Below are positions 11,328-14,217 of a DNA stretch of 64,000 bases, in pieces. Below the pieces are notes generated by a model. That model ran no database searches. It was not told the origin of the DNA and worked only from the letters and a program-made list of their open reading frames with translations. The translations under genes and the position numbers were made by a program. The stretch's first letter is position 1; each line of letters starts with the position of its first letter. The DNA is from an uncultured Actinomycetes bacterium (GTDB lineage: Bacteria > Actinomycetota > Acidimicrobiia > Acidimicrobiales > RAAP-2): NCBI GenBank assembly GCA_903900235.1, contig CAIUMH010000134.1, positions 1 to 64,000 on the forward strand, written 5' to 3'.

Positions 11328-12449
11328 TCAGGTCTCGGCCACCGGGCCGGTGAGACGCTTCTCCATCGACCCGAGGTGCCACACGGCGATGGCCAGGATC
11401 CAGGTGAGCGCGAACACGCCGACGACCACGAAGCCGAGCACGTTGAGGTCGATCGACGTCACTGCTCCGAGAACCGGGCCACCGGCGTGGAGCTGGGTGC
11501 CGACCAGGCTCAGGATCTCGATGGTGCCGATCACCACGGCCACCGCCACCGAGACCACCGTGATGATGAGGTTGTAGTAGATCTTCCTCGCCGGCGTCGA
11601 CAGGGCCCAGCCGTAGGCGAAGTTCATGAAGCAGCCGTCGATGGTGTCGAACAAGCTCATGCCGCCGGCGAAGAGCAGCGGAAGGCTGATGATGGCCCAG
11701 AAGGGTAGACCGCCGGCCACGGCGGTGCCCGAGACCACCAGGAGGCCGACCTCGGTAGCGGTATCGAAGCCGAGACCGAACAGCACGCCAAGCGGGTACA
11801 TCTTCCACGGCTCATCGACCCTGCGGGCCAATGGGGCGAGGATCTTGTTCATGAACCCCCGTTCGGCCAGACGCCGCTCGACCTCGTCCTCGTCGTAGCG
11901 ACCGCTGCGCAGCTCGCCCATGGCTCGGATGATGGCCACAAGGATCACCACGTTGAGGGCGGCGATGCCGTAGAGGAAGGTCCCCGAGATCACGGTCCCC
12001 ACCACCGAGGTCACCTGGTGCAGACCCGAGGCCGAGTCGGTCAGGGCGGATCCCAGGCCCCGGACGCCGGCGGCGAGCAGCACCGTGAGCACGAGGACCA
12101 CTGTGGAGTGGCCAAGCGAGAAGTAGAAGCCCACGCTCAGCGGCCGGCGACCCTCGGCCATGAGCTTGCGGGTGGTGTTGTCGATGGCGGCGATGTGGTC
12201 GGCGTCGAAGGCGTGGCGGATGCCGAGGGTCAGGGCGAGGACTCCGGTTCCCACCCCGAAGACCTCGGTCTTCGAGATCCGGTAGTGATGTCCCGAGGCC
12301 GCAAGGAGCAGCAGGCCACCGACACCGAGCAGGCCGAGGATCACGACGGCCATGGCCACGAGCCGGAACCGCTCCGAGGCTGTCAGCGCCCCTCGGCCCG
12401 TCACGCTCGAGGCGACCGAGTCCGTCGGGCGGTCAGCGATCTGGGTCAC
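11328..12449 (-). CDS. NiCoT family nickel/cobalt transporter
   Basis: NiCoT signature RHAFDADHIAAIDN; FSLGHSTVV; LGFDTATE. Confidence 0.93.
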   Translation of the reverse strand: MTQIADRPTDSVASSVTGRGALTASERFRLVAMAVVILGLLGVGGLLLLAASGHHYRISKTEVFGVGTGVLALTLGIRHAFDADHIAAIDNTTRKLMAEGRRPLSVGFYFSLGHSTVVLVLTVLLAAGVRGLGSALTDSASGLHQVTSVVGTVISGTFLYGIAALNVVILVAIIRAMGELRSGRYDEDEVERRLAERGFMNKILAPLARRVDEPWKMYPLGVLFGLGFDTATEVGLLVVSGTAVAGGLPFWAIISLPLLFAGGMSLFDTIDGCFMNFAYGWALSTPARKIYYNLIITVVSVAVAVVIGTIEILSLVGTQLHAGGPVLGAVTSIDLNVLGFVVVGVFALTWILAIAVWHLGSMEKRLTGPVAET

Positions 12450-12451
12450 TC

Positions 12452-12485
12452 TTGCAACCTATTCGCAAGAGCGGGGGACTCGCAA
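12452..12485 (-). promoter_or_regulatory. Candidate leaderless promoter (TTGCGA-N18-TAGGTT-N6-GTG) overlapped by a Nur-box-like operator TTGCAA-CCTAT-TCGCAA (12452-12468)
   Basis: -35 is complement of 12480-12485, -10 is complement of 12456-12461, GTG start at 12449; extended arms TCTTGC...GCAAGA at 12450-12470. Confidence 0.55.
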
Positions 12486-12592: not shown

Positions 12593-12667
12593 GGACCTGT
12601 GGTGCAGTCTGGAGTGCACGCCGCCCTGTCAAGGCGGAGGTCGCGGGTTCAAATCCCGTCAGGTCCG
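12593..12667 (+). tRNA. tRNA-Asp (GTC)
   Basis: Acceptor GGACCTG/CAGGTCC, anticodon loop CTGTCAA, T-arm GCGGGTTCAAATCCCGT. Confidence 0.93.
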
Positions 12668-12703
12668 CTCGGATTCCAGGGGTTCGCCCCGGGATGATGA
12701 TGA

Positions 12704-12779
12704 GGTCGGGTAGCTCAGTTGGCAGAGCGCGCGCCTGAAAAGCGCGAGGTCACCGGATCGACGCCGGTCCCGACCACCA
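12704..12779 (+). tRNA. tRNA-Phe (GAA), CCA encoded
   Basis: Acceptor GGTCGGG/CCCGACC, anticodon loop CTGAAAA, T-arm ACCGGATCGACGCCGGT, 3' ACCA. Confidence 0.93.
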
Positions 12780-12917: not shown

Positions 12918-14213
12918 TCACGGGCCGAGCAGCGCAGCGGGGATGACGGCGATCCCATCGGTGCGTCGATACGCGAACTCGCCCGTGGTGATGACCGCCG
13001 CATCGACCAAGTCGTCACCGATCTCCCGTTGCAACCACGTGAGGTGGCGCACGTCGTCGTCGTTGACGTCACCGGACAGCTTGACCTCGAGCGCCACGAT
13101 CTGACCCCCAGGGCCCTCGACGATCAGATCGATCTCGTGGTTCCCTCGGTGCACTCGAAGGTGGCTCGTCCTCGCGTCGATCGCGTCAGCGAAGACGCGG
13201 ACGTTGAGCGTGACGAGCGACTCGAACAGTGCCCCGAGGAACGTGCCATCGCGGAAGTTGCCGCCGCCTACAAGGTTGGGTCCGAGGAGCGACCTCTTGT
13301 CCAGCCCGAGCAGCGTGGCGGCCAGTGCCGGATCCGCCAGCTGGTGCTTTGGCGCCATGCCAAGCTGCCCAAGGTGGTTCCTCGACGGAATCCATGCAGG
13401 CACCGGCTCGACGATCCACATCCGTTCGAGGGCATCGCGGTAGGCGGAGGCCGTCTGCTTCGCCGGTGACGTGCCGTCCTTCGGGGTCGCGGCGTTTCGG
13501 ATTCGATCGGCAGCTGCGGTGGTGGAGATCGCAGCGGCATAGGCCGCCATCCACCTTCGGAGGGCGACGGGTTTCCTGAGGGTCATGCCCAGCTCCGCGA
13601 AGTCCTGGTCCACGATGCGGTCGACGTAGCCCCGGAGCTGCGCACTTCGGAGGCGATCCGAGAGCGACCGGATCGCCGGGAACCCCGATCGGAAGATCTC
13701 GTCTACGTACTCCTCGAGGTTGGTCGTAGTCTGTCCTCGGACCTCCGGTCGCGATCCCGCCACCATCTCCGTCAGGCTTACCGTGGCGGCCCCAACTCCA
13801 CGCTCGAACAACGTCATCGGTCGCATCCGGAGCCGCACGATCCGCATGGCCCCCGTGTGCGTCGGAGCCGATGACGGCGAGGCCGAGCCCGTCAGGATGA
13901 ACTGGCCGGGCGACGTGTCGGCGTCGACGGCGCGACGGATCAGGTCCTGTGATGGTGGGTAGCGCTGCCATTCGTCGAAGAGGATCGGCGTTGGGGATCT
14001 CAGCAACTGGCCGAAGTCAGCCTCGGCGAGTTCCCGGACGTGGGGTCGGTCGAGCTCGAAGACGGTTGCTGCCTTCCGTGATGCCGTCGCCGTCTTGCCC
14101 ACCGCCTTCGGCCCTTCGATGGCAACGGCGGAGAGTCCTTGGAGGTATGCATCGAGGACGGCGTCGACGACCCGCTCTCGATAGGCGTCACTCCGGTCCA
14201 TGGCGTGCTCCAT
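12918..14213 (-). CDS. ATP-binding protein, AAA + DUF4143-like
   Basis: Walker A GPKAVGKTATA, Walker B PILFDEWQ, C-terminal VHRGNHEIDLIVEGPGGQIVALEVKLS nuclease-like domain typical of the DUF4143 ATPases. Confidence 0.85.
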   Translation of the reverse strand: MEHAMDRSDAYRERVVDAVLDAYLQGLSAVAIEGPKAVGKTATASRKAATVFELDRPHVRELAEADFGQLLRSPTPILFDEWQRYPPSQDLIRRAVDADTSPGQFILTGSASPSSAPTHTGAMRIVRLRMRPMTLFERGVGAATVSLTEMVAGSRPEVRGQTTTNLEEYVDEIFRSGFPAIRSLSDRLRSAQLRGYVDRIVDQDFAELGMTLRKPVALRRWMAAYAAAISTTAAADRIRNAATPKDGTSPAKQTASAYRDALERMWIVEPVPAWIPSRNHLGQLGMAPKHQLADPALAATLLGLDKRSLLGPNLVGGGNFRDGTFLGALFESLVTLNVRVFADAIDARTSHLRVHRGNHEIDLIVEGPGGQIVALEVKLSGDVNDDDVRHLTWLQREIGDDLVDAAVITTGEFAYRRTDGIAVIPAALLGP

Positions 14214-14217
14214 CACA

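Follow-up and report, generated by a model that had tools for sequence, protein, structure and literature searches.

A short palindrome abuts the start codon of nicT, a nickel/cobalt permease gene, in the stretch of actinobacterial DNA analyzed here (64,000 nucleotides, referred to as the window). Its sequence raises the question of whether nickel uptake in this organism is switched by a Nur-type repressor acting on the nicT promoter and, if so, through which protein and in response to which metal. The following features bear on this question:

11328–12449, minus strand: nicT, NiCoT nickel/cobalt permease gene, 373 aa, GTG start at 12449–12447
12449–12471, no strand: extended palindrome with 9-bp arms, 8/9 positions paired, from the sequence and the flanks of relatives
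12452–12468, no strand: Nur-box-like operator TTGCAA-N5-TCGCAA, from direct reading and the conserved 5-bp spacer at NicT orthologues
12456–12461, minus strand: candidate −10 hexamer TAGGTT, within the operator and separated from the start codon by 6 nt; the geometry recurs in relatives
12480–12485, minus strand: candidate −35 element TTGCGA, 18-nt spacer; TTGNNN occurs at 17–18 nt in relatives

The nicT gene, its palindrome, and its promoter

The nicT product scored 471 bits against the NicT model NF052500 (cut-off 450) and 362 bits against TIGR00802 (HoxN/HupN/NixA, cut-off 333), and matched the PF03824 domain. Between an upstream in-frame stop (at −12) and residue 16, GTG is the sole start codon. 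On the plus strand, TTGCAA (12452–12457), CCTAT, and TCGCAA (12463–12468) follow one another and abut this start. The original prediction had described the element as a Nur box with one deviation in a weak position, and on direct reading this was accurate to the base: the single departure from the Streptomyces coelicolor consensus tTGCaa-N5-ttGCAA (PMC3919588) falls at a lower-case position. The palindrome is longer than first noted, with extended arms at 12449–12471 that read CTCTTGCAA-CCTAT-TCGCAAGAG; relatives do not keep the letters of the outer 3 bp.

The minus-strand layout proposed earlier, TTGCGA-N18-TAGGTT-6 nt-GTG, was confirmed at 12485–12480, 12461–12456, and 12449–12447, and the TAGGTT hexamer does lie inside 12452–12468, in agreement with the idea of an operator covering the −10 element. 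A TTGNNN hexamer at 17–18 nt spacing was present in all four focal-genus members compared. TTGCGA at 12480–12485 is also a lone half-site, which relatives do not keep. TANNNT was found at exactly 6 nt before an in-frame ATG/GTG in 4 of 6 focal-genus members (0.7 expected), and at 6–7 nt in 53 of 67 members of the largest genus (5.8 expected); the signal was weaker in other genera (15/58 vs. 3.3 expected). No Shine-Dalgarno-like sequence was seen in those focal-genus and largest-genus nicT promoters that have TANNNT at 6–7 nt. This recurring −10/start geometry without a Shine-Dalgarno sequence favors the leaderless promoter that had been suggested for nicT, and the nicT transcript is probably leaderless.

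Divergent to nicT are tRNA-Asp(GTC) and tRNA-Phe(GAA) genes (12593–12779), adjoined by an AAA_14/DUF4143 ATPase gene (12918–14216, minus strand). The nearest relative, G033 (L037), keeps the same tRNA-Asp/tRNA-Phe arrangement beside nicT.

Conservation of the probable operator upstream of NicT orthologues

Within the 64-kb window alone, one match to the Nur box at ≤2 mismatches was found vs. 0.31 expected, which is insufficient for significance. Window-only matches of similar quality are common, appearing at ≤2 mismatches in 27 of 100 shuffles, and would allow the focal palindrome to be a product of chance; this reading is contradicted by conservation, fixed spacing, and genome-wide uniqueness, and its probability is negligible. 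In the 2.40-Mb focal genome, the palindrome alone matches the Nur box at ≤1 mismatch; a reversed-pattern control gave 0 sites. When the pattern was relaxed to TTGCRA-N5-TYGCAA with ≤1 mismatch, 6 sites were found genome-wide vs. 3 control sites, and the NicT site alone stood out, with 0 mismatches. In 4 of 6 focal-genus genomes there is exactly one exact TTGCRA-N5-TYGCAA site genome-wide, and it is located on nicT.

NicT is present in 146 of 172 genomes of the family. In 131 NicT upstream regions, the Nur-box pattern was matched exactly in 13 cases, at ≤1 mismatch in 34, and at ≤2 mismatches in 57. The corresponding numbers for the reversed pattern in the same regions were 0, 0, and 3, and for coding-stretch controls 0, 0, and 1–5. 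The conservation upstream of orthologous NiCoT genes on which the original prediction hinged was thus borne out (34/131 at ≤1 mismatch vs. 0 in controls). When spacers of 0 to 12 bp were tried, exact matches upstream of NicT occurred solely at 5 bp. The distribution among genera is uneven: all 6 NicT upstream regions of the focal genus carry the box at ≤1 mismatch, whereas the largest genus has it in 1 of 67. With the largest genus and 13 boxless low-identity NicT genes set aside (a post hoc exclusion), 46 of 51 NicT genes have a box at ≤2 mismatches, and about 5 of the 51 have none within this limit. Boxes are also found ahead of NicT in Streptomyces, Streptacidiphilus, Nocardia, and other named actinobacteria. 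Judged by its named relatives, the focal organism belongs in or near Acidimicrobiales.

The nearest relative, whose NicT is 88% identical, matches the focal operator at 17 of 17 positions vs. 34% identity across the 41 bp before the operator; in a second genome pair, the operator is 100% identical vs. 51% for the flank. Because the focal palindrome is conserved among NicT orthologues, it is far more than a chance match, and a chance palindrome was rejected on the grounds that the operator is kept against diverged flanks.

The idea that the Nur regulon of the focal genome extends further was considered and rejected: the other sites at ≤1 mismatch are near the control level, and those inspected, of which one falls within a glycosyltransferase gene and another precedes a gene for a metallo-beta-lactamase-fold protein, were unconvincing. 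Further boxes, for instance at sodF/sodN, did not materialize, as the genome-wide scan gave no other convincing Nur box, and none was recognised at the gene for nickel superoxide dismutase (NiSOD) in genome-wide pattern scans. The absence of sodF/sodN control limits the regulon and leaves the operator claim untouched.

The Nur-like regulator and its metal

The Nur/Fur-family regulator anticipated for this genome was found. The focal genome codes for two FUR proteins, one Zur and one Nur-like. The gene for the latter (G000:C143:56838-57281) encodes a protein, C143 FUR, for which S. coelicolor Nur (ScNur; 3eyy, E 8.8e-26) is the best match of solved structure, followed by 2fe3 (1.4e-17), and which groups with ScNur in a quick tree with long branches (SH-aLRT 97). 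By both the structure-relative search and the tree, C143 FUR is nearer to ScNur than to Zur, PerR, or Fur. The other FUR is closest to 3mwm and FurB and adjoins a ZnuA-like gene. Actinobacterial Zur proteins (ScZur 3mwm, M. tuberculosis FurB 2o03) share the superfamily with C143 FUR but form a separate clade, and have the second focal FUR as their best match.

Of the 146 family genomes with nicT, 37 have a Nur-like gene no more than about 1.5 kb away from it, as counted by hand from coordinates. The two genes are head-to-head in 31 genomes, and the box therefore often lies between them. In the focal genome, nur and nicT are on different contigs and are not adjacent. Autoregulation of nur in this genome was rejected; nur starts ~9 bp after a glycosyltransferase gene, and no box was found there. 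The palindrome could in principle belong to another repressor, either Zur, the one remaining FUR of the focal genome, or a metal sensor outside the FUR family. We regard this as highly improbable: the FUR genes that adjoin nicT in relatives are of the nur type and not zur, the site has the Nur-box consensus with the exact 5-bp spacer, and the operator type tracks the helix type of Nur (see below).

We take the Ni-site of ScNur to consist of His 70, 72, and 126, and its M-site of the four histidines 33, 86, 88, and 90. In the alignment, the Ni-site histidines 70/72/126 are kept in C143 FUR and in nearly all family relatives, and four cysteines are also kept in C143 FUR. At the M-site, 33 and 90 are kept, and the H of HGH corresponds to 88 if aligned without a gap; ScNur His86 aligns with Ala, though the local alignment is uncertain owing to a one-residue gap. 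The Nur-like FURs of the family (L148-L177, L201-L220) have Ala or Val at the position of ScNur His86 in nearly all cases. Because of this replacement the metal site does not fully match that of ScNur, and the metal site of the family proteins may differ from that of S. coelicolor Nur, for which a three-His Ni site is described (PMC7055735).

The focal genome contains a NiSOD gene (L178:1495-2363, on contig C112), the sole superoxide dismutase found among the families sought; no Fe/Mn-SOD gene was found. Since NiSOD is present and Fe/Mn-SOD absent, the supply of nickel is expected to be important. Across the family, 142 of 172 genomes have NiSOD. No NiFe hydrogenase was found in the focal genome, and urease was rejected, since its only match was weak and partial (27.5 bits) and was read as another amidohydrolase. 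The NiSOD gene is divergent to an S26-peptidase-like ORF, a candidate maturation peptidase (sodX).

Eight of the 13 boxless NicT paralogues (L044, L047, L049, L050, L051, L054, L062, and L082) are preceded by a sequence that matches a cobalamin riboswitch (E ≤ 0.05), and two of these matches exceed the Rfam gathering score; no riboswitch was found upstream of focal nicT. These genes resemble the focal system in having a NiCoT target under metal-related control, but they use a B12-responsive RNA switch that the focal gene lacks. The pattern suggests a split of the importers into box-bearing NicT for nickel and riboswitch-bearing NicT for cobalt/B12.

The same operator and repressor could also respond to cobalt, or to both metals, and serve as a cobalt-uptake switch. 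NiCoT permeases carry Ni and Co, M-site His86 of ScNur is replaced, and NiSOD was not detected in G033 (genome 91% complete), which has the operator site. We nevertheless consider a cobalt effector unlikely, given that the best solved relative of C143 FUR is the nickel-specific Nur, the Ni-site histidines are kept, nicT passes the nickel-transporter model, and the riboswitch-controlled paralogues look like separate cobalt importers.

Taken together, comparative sequence evidence indicates that a Nur-type FUR repressor, C143 FUR, very probably has its operator at 12452–12468, and that nickel-loaded Nur would block the probably leaderless nicT promoter. We infer binding by C143 FUR, nickel as the co-repressor, steric repression, and the position of the transcription start. 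When nickel is plentiful, a metal-loaded Nur dimer would bind TTGCRA-N5-TYGCAA, cover the −10 element together with the start of the leaderless promoter, and so prevent RNA polymerase from starting. When nickel is short, Nur would let go and the NicT importer would be made, with the imported nickel presumably feeding NiSOD among others.

Targets of S. coelicolor Nur include nikABCDE and sodF (Ahn et al. 2006, as cited in PMC7055735; PMC3919588), and at sodF the Nur operator overlaps the promoter (PMC3919588). The proposed focal switch is similar in its FUR-family regulator, 6-5-6 palindrome, nickel-uptake target, and promoter-overlapping operator. It differs in that a NiCoT permease takes the place of the nikABCDE ABC importer as target, the focal genome has no sodF, the M-site His86 is not conserved, and the promoter is putatively leaderless with the candidate −10 element inside the operator. 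A partial literature search found no work that connects Nur with NiCoT genes or with Acidimicrobiia. The nicT operator adds a new, well-supported case to a known kind of switch. The arrangement recurs in many related genomes, and would carry nickel control by Nur beyond the ABC importer of Streptomyces to the NiCoT permeases of an actinobacterial order whose members are known mainly from metagenomes.

A different probable operator in the largest genus

Most NicT promoters of the largest genus carry TTANTAGGA-N5-TCCNANTAA, a 23-bp palindrome with 9-bp arms, instead of the Nur box. A loose form of this pattern was found in 42 of 67 largest-genus promoters vs. 0 of 131 coding controls; a letter-free inverted-repeat scan with 9-bp arms was too noisy for use. 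The palindromes are located about 85–102 nt before the NicT core (L004-L033, L065-L108, L182-L200). Hybrids between the Nur box and the TTANTAGGA operator also exist, e.g., TTAATGCGA-ATAGT-TCCCATTAA.

The Nur-like proteins of the TTANTAGGA genomes have SPST in the recognition helix, and AKR replaces SRR in the preceding conserved stretch, while genomes of the same genus with an HLST-type Nur keep TTGCGA in the left operator half. It appears fairly likely that in this family, apparently of the Acidimicrobiales, the operator and the Nur helix changed together, via hybrids like TTAATGCGA-N5-TCCCATTAA, with the operator shifted by approximately one helical turn from the leaderless start. Because the change in operator and helix follows phylogeny, the association of operator type with helix type is a correlation from few events, short of proving co-evolution. 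The series from TTGCRA through the hybrids to TTANTAGGA offers natural material for studying the joint change of a FUR regulator and its site. Elsewhere in the family, the recognition helix is of the AAST type in the focal genus and of the HLST type in most other genera, both with TTGCRA-N5-TYGCAA. The TTANTAGGA-N5-TCCNANTAA palindromes, too, sit on leaderless-looking promoters.
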